A stretch of DNA of 26,830 nt from a virus, in IMG/VR virus record IMGVR_UViG_3300048597_000649, positions 1 to 26,830 of that record; one strand, 5' to 3'. The notes under the pieces are model-generated. The model was not told the origin of the DNA and ran no database searches. It saw nothing but the letters and a program-made list of their open reading frames with translations. Below, one piece after another: positions 2,346-22,281 of this stretch (within the stretch, counting starts at the first letter, position 1; the number at the start of each line of letters is the position of its first letter). Both the position numbers and the translations under genes were made by a program.

Positions 2346-5050
2346 GACGGCTCTGGCACGTCCGTGACACGCGGGATGACGGTGAGCTGCCCGGTGAGCG
2401 TGTCGAGGTTGGAGTCTGCGGCGTTGTCAGGGTCCACTCGGGAGTCCAGCACGGCCCAGCGAAGGGACTTGCCTTCCGGTCCCGCGCAGGGGACCAGCAG
2501 GCGGTCGCCTTCGTACTTGCCGATCTCACCTACGGCGGTGCCGTCTGCCGACTGACGCAGGGAGCGGTCGGAGGTGATGAAGGCTTTACGGCCTGATGCG
2601 AGTACGAGGTCTGGTGGCGCGTCGGAGGTGATGACCGAGCGAACACTTGGCGAGTAAAAGCTGGACTTGAAGACACTGGTATCGGGCCGTGTGCCCGTCC
2701 ACCATAGCTCGTGGTAAATGCCGTAACCGCCGGTGGCGAGAGTGCCGCCCGTCGCCAGGTCTGTGTCGGCAGGACAAGAGACCGTGTGGTTCCAGCCGAA
2801 TATGTCTTTCGACATAGTGACCGTCGCCGTTCCATCGGTTAAGACCATGAGGGTAAGGTTTCCAGTCCCATACTCCTGAACGGGAATCGCCTTGATCGCC
2901 AGAAGTGTCTCGACTCCGGCCTTGCGCTTACCGATCAGGAGATAAGCCGTCGGCACGGTAGGCCCAGCATTCCACCACACGCCCGCAAATACAAAATTGT
3001 TTGTGTCGGTGTAGCGAGTGATCAGGTAGGACTTATCTTTTGCCGTTAGCCCGAGATTTCGTGGATATGTTGAGTAAATACAACTCATCTGAACCCCGGC
3101 CTGTGTGCCCGTACCGAGTCGAGCGAACCGCCCGCCCCAAGCTGCGGAGTCGGTTGTAGCTGGATCGCGATTTACGAACGAGCCAGAGGTAAACGCCGAA
3201 AAGTCAGTCGCCGCTCCGGTCCCAGACCAGGTGCCGCCCAATTGCGCCACCCGTCCAGCCAGCACGGAGTTTGCCGCCGTTCCGAATCCCCGAGCAACAA
3301 GCCCGCCACCCACTGAAAGCGGCTGAGGATTAGGCCGAGACTCCGAGTAGTGCTCGTCAACCGGGAATACCTCAAGAGCGTCGAATGAGATTATGTCGCC
3401 GGGGACTGTGGACTTCGCCGCGATGCGCGGCTCCCACCTCCATGCTCCCGAGCTTCCCCAAGGGGCGACCTGCGGCGGCTCCAGACGGACCACGCCAAGA
3501 TCAACCCAGTCCCACGCGCCTTCCTGCGTGTCTGCGGGGATGGTCGCCGGGTCATTGATTGTCCAGCGCGTGAGGTCTGCGCCGGAGTATTCGAGCCGGA
3601 CCTGAGTCTCGCCGGTGTTTCCAGTCGGCAACCAGATTCGCGCCCAGATTCGGTAGCTGCCCTTGTGGGTCGGATAGACCCCGCCGAGGGTCTTTCCGGA
3701 CAGGTACGGCGTCCAGCCGTCGGTCATGATGGCGGCGACGACCCCGTTTGTGTAGCCGCCGTTGGTATTGCCTGCCGTGCCGTAGGAGTTAGTGAGTATG
3801 GCCCCGGACATCGGCGTGCTGTCTTTCGCCAGAAACTCGATGCCTGCGGTCGCGGCGGTATCCAGACGATCCGACTGAAGTGAGGTCAGCAGGAAGTTCC
3901 GGTTGGCCGATCCCGTGTCCGTGATCTCCAGCTTGCCGAGAGCGGGGTAGTTGCCGGGCACCGGGCCTTCGACTGCCGAGAGGATTGACTTCGCGGCGGC
4001 CTTTGTGCGGAGCGGGAATACGACCGGGGCGAGCCGGGCGGCAGGTTTACAGGTCAGCTCAAAGGCGAAAACGTTTTGCCCCTGAGCCATCGTCGGCTTC
4101 CAGTCTCCGACGAAGGTGGCTTCGATCACGTCGAAGACAATCGGAGTTCCGTCATGAAGGTACCTCTTGAAGGTTCCGCCAGAGCGGGCCAGCTTCTCGA
4201 TCTTCGACTCCAGGTCGTAGAGGGACTGGAGGAACCTCTTACGACCAAGCCCCTTACGGGTCGCGCTTGAAGCGTGAGCGGTGCCCGTCCACTTACAACC
4301 GGGAGTGTCGCCGTCGAAGTAGTAGGTGCTCTGAGTCTGTTCGAGCTGGAAGGCGTCGGCCAGCACCCCTACGGCCTGCGCAGAGTTATTGGTCAGCAGC
4401 ACAGCCGCCTTTACTCCCGTGCCGCCGAAGGTACGGGTGACTGACACCCGCTGCCAGTCGGCGGTCAGGGTGACTGTGGCGGTAGTTGTCCCGACCAGAG
4501 TCGGCGTCGTGGTGTATTCGGCCAGCCGGAGCTGAACGATCTTGCCGACGTCGCCTGCGGTCTTTGCTTTCACGTAGCAGGAGGCAACCCACGGCACCGA
4601 GGGCGTGGTAGTGGTGAGAACGTCCGAGGTCGCGCCGCTGCCGGAGGTCGTGGTGGTTGCGAGGTCGAGGGCGTACTCTCCGGCCACGCCGCCGAGAACC
4701 CGCGTCAAGGTGGCCGACGACACGGCGCTCCAGCCGGTCAGGTTCTTTTCCAGACTGGGGTTCGGGATGAAGTTCGTCGCCGCGTCCACGCCCTGCGATT
4801 CGGCGATGTAGACCTCTACCGGGATGCGGCGATTGGAGAACCGGGGAGCGCCGGTCCTCTTGTCGCCTTCTGAGGCAATCGTCGGGACGAAGTTGGAGGC
4901 CATCTCAGGCCGAGGGAAGTTCCACTCTCTGAGGCCGACCGCGTGCCCGTGGACCCCACCGGGCACCATCCCGCCCGTTACTTCCAGCGGCAGGTTGGCC
5001 GAGTCTTCACTGATCGGGTCGAGTATCCCTCTTTCCTGATATTCCGGCAT
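2342..5050 (-). CDS. Distal-tail-like minor tail protein with inserted carbohydrate-binding-like domain
   Basis: This is a 902-aa protein whose ATG at 5050 directly abuts the tape measure stop. Residues 1-85 and about 267-340 look like the two halves of one distal tail (Dit) N-terminal domain: strands around IPVEVYI, then FLQSLYDLESKIEKLARSGG and TPIVFDVIEATFVGDWKP, ending FELTCKPAARL. Between them, residues about 86-266 form a separate beta-sandwich-like module. It begins NFIPNPSLEKNLTGWSA and ends YYFDGDTPGCKWTGTAHASS, a pattern seen in carbohydrate-binding modules of tail proteins. The rest (about 340-900) is Gly/Thr/Ser-rich beta structure, probably more receptor-contacting domains. It probably forms the tail tip ring and helps in host surface binding. 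Family calls are from sequence pattern, not a search. Confidence 0.75.
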   Translation of the reverse strand: MPEYQERGILDPISEDSANLPLEVTGGMVPGGVHGHAVGLREWNFPRPEMASNFVPTIASEGDKRTGAPRFSNRRIPVEVYIAESQGVDAATNFIPNPSLEKNLTGWSAVSSATLTRVLGGVAGEYALDLATTTTSGSGATSDVLTTTTPSVPWVASCYVKAKTAGDVGKIVQLRLAEYTTTPTLVGTTTATVTLTADWQRVSVTRTFGGTGVKAAVLLTNNSAQAVGVLADAFQLEQTQSTYYFDGDTPGCKWTGTAHASSATRKGLGRKRFLQSLYDLESKIEKLARSGGTFKRYLHDGTPIVFDVIEATFVGDWKPTMAQGQNVFAFELTCKPAARLAPVVFPLRTKAAAKSILSAVEGPVPGNYPALGKLEITDTGSANRNFLLTSLQSDRLDTAATAGIEFLAKDSTPMSGAILTNSYGTAGNTNGGYTNGVVAAIMTDGWTPYLSGKTLGGVYPTHKGSYRIWARIWLPTGNTGETQVRLEYSGADLTRWTINDPATIPADTQEGAWDWVDLGVVRLEPPQVAPWGSSGAWRWEPRIAAKSTVPGDIISFDALEVFPVDEHYSESRPNPQPLSVGGGLVARGFGTAANSVLAGRVAQLGGTWSGTGAATDFSAFTSGSFVNRDPATTDSAAWGGRFARLGTGTQAGVQMSCIYSTYPRNLGLTAKDKSYLITRYTDTNNFVFAGVWWNAGPTVPTAYLLIGKRKAGVETLLAIKAIPVQEYGTGNLTLMVLTDGTATVTMSKDIFGWNHTVSCPADTDLATGGTLATGGYGIYHELWWTGTRPDTSVFKSSFYSPSVRSVITSDAPPDLVLASGRKAFITSDRSLRQSADGTAVGEIGKYEGDRLLVPCAGPEGKSLRWAVLDSRVDPDNAADSNLDTLTGQLTVIPRVTDVPEPS

Positions 5051-18478: not shown

Positions 18479-20008
18479 CGGCTCGTCGCCTGAGCCCGAA
18501 CCGGGAAGGTTCAGTTCTGGCACCGACAAGTCAATCGCCGGCATTGGATCGGGCCTGTTGGCTGCGATCCGGTCAAGTTCTTCCTGTACCTGGTCGTCTG
18601 ACCAAGAGGGATGAAGTTCGCGCACTGCGGTCTCGGTTGACTCGATCTCGGCGGCCACGAGTACCGAGTGGCGCTGGGCGGACTCCATCGGGTCTTGCGG
18701 CAGGGGATCGGTGCGTTCGAAGCTCGGCGGCTCACCCGCGGCAGTCCACGAAACGCCGAACCCGCCCATCGTCGTAGGCAGGGCGTCGAGGAGCTGGGCC
18801 ATCAGGAGCATCCTGGGGATCGCTCCGTCCCAGTATTGGCCCTTGCCGTGGGCGGCAGATGTGGTCGGGATCAGGCGGACCCGAAGCGCGGTGCCAGTTT
18901 CGGCTGCGCCTTCCTGCCCGGTGTAGGAGCCGACGAACTGCGGGGTGATTCCGGCGCGGGTGAGTGCGGAGGTCACGAGGTCGCGCTTGTACTCGACCAG
19001 TGCCTGGGCGTCGAAGCTGTACTCCAGCACCTTGTACGGCCCGCTGTCCTTGCCGTCGAGGGAGGTATCCATATCGTCGGCAGCGAAGACATCTTCGGAG
19101 GCGTCGAAGGTCGGGCGGTGGACCACGGATCTTGAGCCGTCGCCGTTGTCTACGGTTTCGACCCTGGGCTTCAGGAGGTTGCGAGGAACGACCACGCGCT
19201 TCTTCAGCGTGAGCCGGGCATTCTCGTGCCCGATGGTCACGGCCTCGTTCAGCGCCAGCAGATAGTCCTCGATGGCGCGATAGTCCGAGATACCGAGGCG
19301 GCGGTTCCTGCCGAGCTTGTTGGCGATCCGGCCGCAGAGCATCCCCGGCAGGCCGTGCTCCCAAACCTCTCCGAGGTCTTCGGTCTCGGGGTGAGAGCCC
19401 AGATCAACGCGGTTGCCGACCCGTTCACTGGTCCCGCGGTAAAGCAGGTTTTGAACCAGCCCTTCGGAGTGAACCTCGAAGTGCCGCCAGACGGTTCTCT
19501 CCTCGCCCTCTGCGGTGTCGGGCCCGAGAAACTCCGAGACGAAAGCAGCGGCGACCAGACGGTTACCGATCCAGTGCGGCACCACCAGCTCTCGGGAGTG
19601 GAACTCGATCAGCGGGTGATCGGAGACGGAGCGGTTGGCGTAGATCCGCCACCACACTTCGCCCTCTGAGGAGCAAAGGGTCTCGCCCCAGCGAAGCTCT
19701 GCCGCCATGTCAGAGTCTTCGAGCAGCGTCTCGAGAGCGTCAGTGTCGGCCTCGTCTGCCGGTTCGATGTGCGGCGACTCACCGAACAGCAGCGAAGCGT
19801 ACGCCTCGCTGATCTTCTCGGGCAGCGGGTCCACGAGGTAGCCGCGATCCATCTCCCAGTCAGCGACGTTCTTCAGGTGCTCTTTGTCGGCTTCGCGGAA
19901 CGCGGCCCACTTGAGAACCTGCTTGACGTTCTTTCGCTCGTCGAGCAGCGGCCATGTCTGGCCTGTCTTCTCGATCCTGCGAATAAGTAGTTTGGCGGTT
20001 TCTTCCAT
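18467..20008 (-). CDS. Portal protein
   Basis: This 513-aa protein shares one base with the terminase stop (TGATG at 20010-20006). The pattern is that of SPP1 gp6-like portals: helical N-terminus (KHLKN-like region, DPLPEKISEAYASLLFGESPHIE), a wing with ETLCSSEGEVWWRIYAN and PLIEFHSRELVVPHW, then IEDYLLALNEAVTIGHENARL near residue 250, and the conserved C-terminal YSFDAQALVEYKRDLVTSALTRAGITPQFVGS. The last 40 residues are Pro/Asp/Gly-rich. Twelve copies form the ring at one vertex through which DNA enters. Family and order are fully consistent. Confidence 0.9.
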   Translation of the reverse strand: MEETAKLLIRRIEKTGQTWPLLDERKNVKQVLKWAAFREADKEHLKNVADWEMDRGYLVDPLPEKISEAYASLLFGESPHIEPADEADTDALETLLEDSDMAAELRWGETLCSSEGEVWWRIYANRSVSDHPLIEFHSRELVVPHWIGNRLVAAAFVSEFLGPDTAEGEERTVWRHFEVHSEGLVQNLLYRGTSERVGNRVDLGSHPETEDLGEVWEHGLPGMLCGRIANKLGRNRRLGISDYRAIEDYLLALNEAVTIGHENARLTLKKRVVVPRNLLKPRVETVDNGDGSRSVVHRPTFDASEDVFAADDMDTSLDGKDSGPYKVLEYSFDAQALVEYKRDLVTSALTRAGITPQFVGSYTGQEGAAETGTALRVRLIPTTSAAHGKGQYWDGAIPRMLLMAQLLDALPTTMGGFGVSWTAAGEPPSFERTDPLPQDPMESAQRHSVLVAAEIESTETAVRELHPSWSDDQVQEELDRIAANRPDPMPAIDLSVPELNLPGSGSGDEPPAL

Positions 20009-22281
20009 CAGCTCCTCGATCTTGCGGCTATCGGTGCGACACCCGCGATCAGCGCGTCGGGGCCGTGGTCATCGCCCTTCTCAACCTTCTGGGCATCGGC
20101 GTCTTTCCAGTGAAGCCCGCGCAATTGCTCCAAGAGGACGGAACACCGGGGGGATATGGCGATCACCTGAGTTGTCTCTCCGGCTGCGGTTCGCTCAAAG
20201 AGTCGGCGGAGGTAGTTGATCGTTTCGACCTTGTACTTTGAGAACGGAATCTTCATCGTGCGGAGGTCCGGGTGCGTGCGTCGAGCCGCGGCAATGAAGG
20301 TGCGCTGGGACTGGACCCCGGCGGCGTCGTAATTGCTCTGCGATACAGGCCAGCCGGTAGCATCAGCCATGCGGAGCATCTTGGCTGCCGAGACTCCCGG
20401 CTCCTCTTTACTCAGCGGCAGCTCGTCCGTGACGTAAACCCCGCCACGCTCCAGCGGCCAGATGGTCAGGGCGTGAGTGCTCTCGCCCCAGTCGATGCCC
20501 AGCTCAATCGAGCCGCCAGCGGGTTCAGGCGGGTTGCCGTCGAGCAGGCGTCCGAGCGATTCGGCGGCATCGATGCCTTCCTGGTCGTAGACCCACTCGC
20601 CGGAGCCGCGGGCGTTCCAGTCTCCGTCCCTAAGTTGCGCGACTGTCTGTGAGTCGAGCTGCGAGAGCGCGGCGAGATATTCGTCCTGGTCGAGTCCCGG
20701 GTTATCGGCCAGCCGGGCCGGGATAAAGATGCGTTTGGACCCGTCGCCGTCCTTGTCAATGAAACGACGCTTGACCCAGACGTGGCCCTTGCCGCCGGGG
20801 TTTGATGCTGATCGCATCCGGGGCGGCACAGGGGAAGTCTCCGAGGAACGCAGCCGTGAGAAGAGGTAGCGGTACTGGTCTTCCTCGAAGTGGGTCAGCT
20901 CGTCGAAGCCACAGTTTGACGATACAATCCCCCCATATGAAACGTAATGAGATCCACCGGCCACAGTTAGATCCGCAACTTCCGCCTCACCCGCTGGGGC
21001 CATACCTGCCTGGGCGAGGTGGTAGACCTCGGAAATATCCAGAGGAGCAGACGTGTAGGGGTGGGGCAGCTCTCCTACATCCAGACGGTTACGCCCACGA
21101 ATACTCGCCGGATCATCCGGCTGCGAGTGGAGCCGGTCGAGTCCGGCAGCATCGCCTTGTGTTCGAGTGTTACCTAGGCCGGCTGCTGACCTCTGAAGAG
21201 ATCGTCCACCATCGGAACCGGAACAAGATTGATAACCAGTACGAGAATCTGGAGCTTCACACTCGGGACACCCATGGCCTGGAGCATGGTCCCGAGACTC
21301 GGGAGCGTTCGACTGCCGCCTTGACCGAGGATCAGGTCCGAAAAGCACTAGAGGGACGGACCACGCTGGAGGCAAGTCGCCTGCTAAACGTGAACCATCA
21401 AACCCTGCGGAACCGCTTTGCGGGTCTGATCTCAAAGAGGCGCTCGCCGGGTTCGGAGTTCGATCCTGATTTCGTCGAACGGCTGCGTACCCTTGCGGCT
21501 GACCCAACGGTGAGCACCCGCAGGGCGGCGGCGGTGCTGAATTGTGCTCAGGCGACGATGCGAGAGTGCCGCCGCATCCATGGCATTCAGTGGGTATCAG
21601 CTCCGCTGGGCAGACCCAGCCGGAAGGCGTAAGCAGCCGATGGGTCTCGCTGACCACTGAATAGCCGGTCTCGGTCGAAACCTTCACCACCGGCTTGACG
21701 CCGGGTCGGTGGGTGCGGGTGACGGGCCGCGGCCCTTCGAGGGTCGCCACAAGATCGCCAGCCTGAATGCCGCGGATTGGTCGCCAATCGCCGCTGGCCA
21801 TCAACACCGGAGTGTCAATCGCAACGCAGAAGTCGTACTCCGCGCCCTGGTAGTCGAAGTGACTGTCCTTGCGCTGGAGGTGGCCGAACTCCAGAATCGC
21901 ACCTGACGGGAAGCTCCAGCGGTGCTTCTGGTCGTTCCATGTGGCTTTCCCGGTAAGCCACTGCTTGGAGCGGTCGATTAGGCCACCGGCCTGAGATAGC
22001 TGAGGAAAGTTCTTTCGCAGTAGAAGGGCTTTGTAGCCGGGGATGTCGGCGTACTGAAGCGCAGCGCGGAGGAGTGCGTCTGACTTCCCGCCACCGGCTG
22101 CGCCTCCGTAGAGGGCTTCGAGGTGAGGCAAGGCAAGGAAGGCTCCCTGCGGGGGTGAGATCGGATAGTCCGGCCAGTACGGGCTCGGGCGGATTGGAAC
22201 CCTAGGTAGCGTCGGCTTCCGAGAGGATCTTGGCAACACTCTTTTGGAACTCGTCTTCGGTCGGGATGTGAGCGTGCTCAA
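20008..22281 (-). CDS. Terminase large subunit containing an intein
   Basis: This is a 757-codon frame encoding about 452 residues of terminase plus a 305-residue intein (residues 152-456). Walker A is GGAAGGGKSD (59-68). The Walker B/catalytic Glu segment becomes FCGFDELTHF only after the intein is removed, joining residue 151 to Cys457. The nuclease half has RDGDWNARG (551-559), the first catalytic Asp in ELGIDWGES (Asp597) and a late acidic HGPDALIAG (Asp741-742 region). It packages DNA using ATP and cuts the concatemer. The frame's outermost start is a TTG at 22281, overlapping the small terminase by 80 nt; a GTG at 22239 is equally plausible. The stop overlaps the portal start. Without splicing the ATPase site would be broken. 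Confidence 0.92.
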   Translation of the reverse strand: MSTLTSRPKTSSKRVLPRSSRKPTLPRVPIRPSPYWPDYPISPPQGAFLALPHLEALYGGAAGGGKSDALLRAALQYADIPGYKALLLRKNFPQLSQAGGLIDRSKQWLTGKATWNDQKHRWSFPSGAILEFGHLQRKDSHFDYQGAEYDFCVAIDTPVLMASGDWRPIRGIQAGDLVATLEGPRPVTRTHRPGVKPVVKVSTETGYSVVSETHRLLTPSGWVCPAELIPTECHGCGGTLASSPEHNSAPPPPCGCSPLGQPQGYAAVRRNQDRTPNPASASLRSDPQSGSAGFDGSRLAGDLPPAWSVPLVLFGPDPRSRRQSNAPESRDHAPGHGCPECEAPDSRTGYQSCSGSDGGRSLQRSAAGLGNTRTQGDAAGLDRLHSQPDDPASIRGRNRLDVGELPHPYTSAPLDISEVYHLAQAGMAPAGEAEVADLTVAGGSHYVSYGGIVSSNCGFDELTHFEEDQYRYLFSRLRSSETSPVPPRMRSASNPGGKGHVWVKRRFIDKDGDGSKRIFIPARLADNPGLDQDEYLAALSQLDSQTVAQLRDGDWNARGSGEWVYDQEGIDAAESLGRLLDGNPPEPAGGSIELGIDWGESTHALTIWPLERGGVYVTDELPLSKEEPGVSAAKMLRMADATGWPVSQSNYDAAGVQSQRTFIAAARRTHPDLRTMKIPFSKYKVETINYLRRLFERTAAGETTQVIAISPRCSVLLEQLRGLHWKDADAQKVEKGDDHGPDALIAGVAPIAARSRS
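20923..20928 (+). promoter_or_regulatory. Candidate -10 box for a leaderless HNH transcript
   Basis: TACAAT lies on the plus strand with its last base 8 nt before the A of the HNH start codon at 20937. This is the spacing expected if transcription begins at or next to the ATG. No Shine-Dalgarno is visible, only a run of C. No proper -35 is seen; TTGAC at 20916 is too close. Leaderless mRNAs with TANNNT boxes are common in actinobacteria. Confidence 0.4.
20937..21632 (+). CDS. HNH homing endonuclease encoded antisense inside the terminase intein
   Basis: This 231-aa protein is the only convincing plus-strand gene. I place the start at the ATG at 20937 (MKRNEIHRPQ), 23 nt inside the intein; the frame is open upstream to 20802, but that part only mirrors terminase. 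Residues about 70-117 form an HNH_3-type domain: QHRLVFECYLGRLLTSEEIV, HHRNRNKIDN (His91, His92) and YENLELHTRDTHGLEH. Residues 127-162 (ALTEDQVRKALEG, ASRLLNVNHQTLRNRF) and about 180-215 (TRRAAAVLNCAQATMRECRR) look like two helix-turn-helix DNA-binding units, usual for homing enzymes. The first ~45 residues are Pro-rich and lie opposite the intein's C-terminal splicing domain. It probably cuts intein-less terminase alleles and spreads the intein. Catalytic activity is inferred. Confidence 0.88.
   Translation: MKRNEIHRPQLDPQLPPHPLGPYLPGRGGRPRKYPEEQTCRGGAALLHPDGYAHEYSPDHPAASGAGRVRQHRLVFECYLGRLLTSEEIVHHRNRNKIDNQYENLELHTRDTHGLEHGPETRERSTAALTEDQVRKALEGRTTLEASRLLNVNHQTLRNRFAGLISKRRSPGSEFDPDFVERLRTLAADPTVSTRRAAAVLNCAQATMRECRRIHGIQWVSAPLGRPSRKA

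Follow-up and report, generated by a model that had tools for sequence, protein, structure and literature searches.

How can an intein in a phage terminase gene keep an intact homing endonuclease gene when that gene is encoded not in the intein's own reading frame but on the opposite DNA strand? This question is raised by a 26,830-nucleotide stretch of viral DNA (the window), a complete IMG/VR record (IMGVR_UViG_3300048597_000649). The record derives from a tailed phage: portal, major head, minor head and tape-measure proteins match PHROGs, and every main gene, including that for TerL, lies on the minus strand. Sequence analysis indicates that one stretch of this DNA codes for two proteins in opposite directions, and that the same design recurs in about 29 distinct viral lineages; splicing, expression and homing are inferred from sequence.

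Architecture of the locus

The TerL frame contains an intein from C152 to N456, located at the Walker B site (Table 1). The N-terminal part of the intein matches Hint/intein models (Vint, E 0.01; rSAM_Rv_intein, NF038136, E 1.1e-7), and the C-terminal part matches TIGR01443 (intein_Cterm) at 21.1 bits, above its cutoff of 15.6. C1 and N305 are invariant in 17 lineages, and the block B and block F residues are likewise invariant, although the residue preceding the C-terminal Asn is not the usual His (SSN here). The plus-strand frame matches PF13392 (HNH_3) at 37.6 bits, above its cutoff of 24.8, and PHROG HNH families to 1e-15. The coordinates and the arrangement given in the preliminary description are therefore confirmed. 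However, its statement that the splicing domains face only non-domain ends of the HNH protein requires correction: about 45 HNH N-terminal codons lie antisense to the C-terminal splicing module. These include an intein motif, HPY(T), of which HPY is invariant in all 18 lineages at this site, facing the conserved HNH motif (C/Y)(K/R)GG, so there is a short, truly dual-coding stretch in which both frames are constrained.

Table 1. Coordinates of the features of the TerL intein and the nested HNH gene in the window.
Coordinates	Strand	Feature	Support
20008–22281	−	TerL (terminase large subunit) precursor frame, 757 aa, open through the intein	PHROG terminase, E 4.6e-56
21829–22281	−	N-extein (Walker A GGAAGGGKS; ends ...GAEYDF)	
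20914–21828	−	Intein, 305 aa: C1, block B His63, block F Asp286/His294, block G Asn305, then +1 Cys	Profile matches at both ends; alignment of lineages
21589–21828	−	N-terminal splicing (Hint) module, intein residues 1–80 (predicted fold)	AF2 pLDDT mostly above 90; Foldseek hit to gp41-1 intein
21073–21588	−	Linker, intein residues 81–252: antisense translation of the HNH gene; no domain, open frame only	Low-confidence AF2 model
20914–21072	−	C-terminal splicing module, residues 253–305, with HPY(T) at residues 256–259 and ...GGIVSSN	
20008–20913	−	C-extein beginning CGFDELTHF (Walker B)	
20937–21632	+	HNH homing-endonuclease-like gene, 231 aa, nested antisense within the intein	
21147–21278	+	HNH_3 nuclease domain, HNH residues 71–114 (QHRL, VHH, N..NL, H conserved)	PF13392, E 1.7e-9; alignment of 19
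21327–21581	+	C-terminal helical repeats with HTH-like helices, HNH residues 131–215 (predicted)	AF2; weak HTH_32 match, E 0.00095, below its cutoff
20923–20928	+	TACAAT, −10-like element 8 nt before the HNH ATG; candidate promoter for a leaderless transcript	Suggestive only

Recurrence at two TerL sites

Single-sequence scans of viral contigs with the TerL and HNH proteins found nothing. A pattern scan for the C-terminal junction, N↓CGFDELTHF (arrow, intein–extein junction), identified one viral contig with the same arrangement, L003 (L-numbers designate the contigs and loci recovered here), whose HNH is 47% identical over 219 aa. Searches using HNH sequence alone then returned eight further lineages with near-full-length matches, and in all of these the HNH lies antisense inside a TerL intein. 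A first scan of genome contigs found none, while a second found one, L056, in a metagenome-assembled bacterial bin. Searches with the intein N-domain added further members, bringing the total to 18 lineages at the Walker B site. Examination of all other HNH hits for long antisense frames uncovered a second site, Walker A (...HN↓[S/T/C]GKT), with 11 lineages, of which one, L028, is at a related place. The phase is the same in every case: HNH codon positions 2, 3 and the next position 1 form one intein codon. Identical sequences recovered from separate samples (L005/L006, L069–L072) argue against assembly error; near-identical contig pairs showed no variation inside the intein.

Other long antisense ORFs opposite HNH genes (L010, L021 and L053) looked like GC artefacts and were not counted, while L048 has a long, real-looking antisense ORF without intein motifs. 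The TerL of L148 holds two inteins, one at Walker A with an antisense HNH and a second later in the protein (...VLVHN↓CMMTPEQ), and the TerL frames of L063 and L082, of 1459 and 1243 codons, appear to hold more than one intein, with several HN↓T and HN↓C junctions.

Selection on the two frames

Both frames are selected, but differently: the HNH frame for sequence and the linker frame mainly for openness. Over codon-aligned core DNA, the HNH frame is 47% identical and the linker frame 21%. Nucleotide identity at HNH codon positions 1, 2 and 3 is 56, 65 and 34%; HNH position 3 is the intein's codon position 2, so the linker's most meaning-bearing position is the least conserved. Yet the linker frame contains no stop, where permutation of synonymous codons within each HNH gene predicts 114.5 over 19 lineages. 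Similarly, Phe followed by a codon starting with A, which forces a stop in the intein frame whatever the codon, occurs 0 times against 16.3 expected. Related lineages are not independent, and inclusion of some lineages in this test required an open frame; however, the lineages found by HNH alone do not have that bias, and they too show zero stops with about 54 expected. In the Walker A lineages, the other two antisense phases do carry stops while the intein phase has none.

Turning to the products of the two frames, 18 of 19 HNHs match HNH_3, whereas the linker has no Pfam match. AlphaFold2 gives pLDDT mostly above 90 for intein residues 1–80 and 267–305 and mostly below 50 between them, and the best PDB hits to the intein model are gp41-1 (Foldseek E 9.3e-6) and DnaB inteins, consistent with a Hint fold formed by the two ends. 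The HNH model has a mean pLDDT of 84, and its top PDB hit is the HNH homing endonuclease I-HmuI (1U3E; prob 0.97), although the Foldseek support is only E 0.012. Mini-inteins of 151 aa without any endonuclease occupy the same TerL site in L065/L066 and L077/L078, so the linker is dispensable; these mini-inteins keep HPYT 50 residues before the C-terminus.

Together, these results support the reading in the preliminary description that the endonuclease is a separate antisense gene and the intein linker only its antisense translation. No same-site relative with an in-frame endonuclease in place of the linker was found. One lineage, L073, keeps the intein (252 aa) and the open TerL frame while the core of its HNH (3562–4197, minus strand) is deleted; with 17 intact HNHs at this site, this fits ordinary decay of a homing endonuclease after fixation rather than an incidental frame.

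Distribution and mobility

TerL relatives found through the N-extein have the site empty in 43 of 43 checked. The closest TerL found, L178 (50% identical over 456 aa), reads SEFDF-IGFDELTHF, against EYDF-[intein]-CGFDELTHF in the window, such that I at the +1 position is C in the window. TerLs that do carry the related inteins are only 31–38% identical to that of the window. In the window's subgroup (window, L003, L004, L005 and L056), the HNH is 46–57% identical but the exteins only 28–48%. This fits horizontal movement of the unit, which is inferred from relative identities and not from a formal tree test. The site-wide HNH tree is too short and poorly resolved to distinguish one origin from several.

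Candidate expression signals

The HNH start ATG lies exactly 95 nt from the intein 3' end in eight lineages, and 23 nt from it in the window, L003 and L004. A Shine-Dalgarno 4-mer precedes 7 of 19 starts, against 6% of other ATGs in the same DNA, but the window itself has no Shine-Dalgarno before the HNH ATG. The GC-rich lineages without a Shine-Dalgarno instead show TANNNT exactly 6 nt before the ATG in six Walker A lineages (background 1.3%), and TACAAT or TACGAT 8 nt before it in the window and L003, with near-matches in L004 and L005. In the window's subgroup, the intein codon that creates the element is the rare GTA or ATA in all five. This suggests a promoter and leaderless start on the antisense strand, but the evidence is indirect.

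Interpretation and alternatives

We propose, with good confidence, that the locus is a mobile TerL intein whose homing endonuclease is a separate gene on the opposite strand, placed between the two splicing modules. In this model, the TerL precursor is translated whole, and the two Hint halves fold around a floppy, approximately 170-aa antisense linker and splice it out. The HNH would be made from its own antisense transcript, cut intein-less TerL genes of co-infecting phages at the Walker B codons, and break repair would copy intein plus HNH into them. That the element splices and homes is likely, although no experiment shows splicing, HNH expression or cleavage. Antisense placement would let the HNH be expressed independently of the late TerL operon; such uncoupling of splicing from endonuclease expression, as suggested in the preliminary description, is plausible, and speculatively, late transcription might silence the HNH. 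More likely than not, these elements represent a widespread, undescribed class of mobile inteins in phage terminases, with a stop-free linker kept open by selection and with cutting and splicing under separate, opposed transcription. Such an arrangement breaks the rule that an intein and its homing endonuclease are one polypeptide, gives a natural test of how overlapping genes share constraint, and explains intein linkers that match nothing, which annotation pipelines miss. Inteins that tolerate a linker of unrelated, unconserved sequence may be useful splicing tools.

Of the alternatives, all unlikely, the one that survives best is that the HNH is not a homing enzyme but a packaging accessory that came to be nested in TerL, as HNH genes adjacent to terminase are widespread and can act in packaging (Kala 2014, as cited in PMC12613952). 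However, this HNH sits exactly between the splicing modules of an intein, is sporadic, is absent from intein-less TerL relatives and from the mini-inteins, and combines HNH_3 with HTH repeats resembling I-HmuI. A second, more doubtful possibility is that the TerL frame is the by-product, either because a free-standing HNH gene inserted and destroyed TerL or because the intein works as a split intein. Fractured genes in which an endonuclease gene lies between split-intein halves appear to exist (Dassa et al. 2009), and the top fold hit of the intein model, gp41-1, is a split-derived intein; against this, the frame is unbroken in every lineage with strong stop avoidance, there is no internal stop or restart, and the splicing motifs and +1 Cys/Ser/Thr are conserved. 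Similarly improbable is a mobile element that is now mainly a regulator, with the antisense HNH transcript controlling TerL: the full antisense overlap with a late gene and the candidate promoter elements would allow it, but protein-level conservation of the HNH is unexplained by an RNA role. Finally, although spurious antisense ORFs are common at 63% GC, a chance ORF opposite an ordinary but degenerate in-frame endonuclease is contradicted by the HNH_3 match, the conserved catalytic residues in 17 of 18 lineages at the site, the codon-position conservation pattern, the presence of the gene at 44–50% GC (L059, L061, L064, L067 and L069) and the lack of any in-frame domain.

Comparison with known systems

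Canonical large inteins share with this element the Hint splicing modules, insertion at an ATPase active-site motif, placement of the endonuclease between blocks B and F, and the homing logic, but carry the endonuclease (LAGLIDADG or HNH) in frame; loci L046 and L051 do so with HNHs related to those described here. The claim in the preliminary description that no intein class built this way is known is too strong. In the ShiLan insertion (Genes 2025; PMC11855218), an HNH gene is hidden in another frame of a methylase whose own frame stays open, with a proposed leaderless start and a mobile distribution; that HNH is on the same strand, the authors find no intein splicing domains and propose that the insert stays in the protein, and antisense coding is not mentioned. 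Actinobacteriophage inteins with "non-canonical architecture" (Gosselin et al., bioRxiv 10.1101/2025.01.02.630785) may include out-of-frame endonucleases, judging from the title and from the citation in PMC11855218. In the fractured genes noted above, a separate endonuclease gene likewise appears to lie between two intein halves, but the host gene is probably broken into two genes and splices in trans, whereas one unbroken frame here would splice in cis. Group I introns with endonuclease ORFs, such as that encoding I-HmuI, share the HNH with helix-turn-helix DNA-binding repeats, but are RNA introns. We found no report of an antisense endonuclease within an intact intein in the literature searched, which did not extend to the full text of the Gosselin et al. 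preprint.

Other TerL inteins carry endonucleases on the same strand but out of frame. In L085, L100, L102, L104, L119 and L130, a TerL intein at WCH...HN↓CDELAAW contains an HNH gene in another frame. About 25 inteins of the CMTGDTPV...SHN↓TRW type contain Endonuclease VII (PF02945, E 3.8e-21), often with GGAG just before the ATG. There again the nested frame is better conserved (58% versus 30% identity for the linker), and no stop is seen where 42 are expected, a total that also includes three HNH inteins. Gordonia phage Fosterous, an isolate and a possible laboratory system, carries such an EndoVII frame (L175, 1311–1844, plus strand), unannotated, inside the intein of its annotated TerL. 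Additionally, the TerL of Gordonia phage GMA6 (L001, 370–2850, plus strand), annotated only as terminase, holds an intein-like insert of 300-odd residues, apparently LAGLIDADG-type, a few residues upstream of the window's site.
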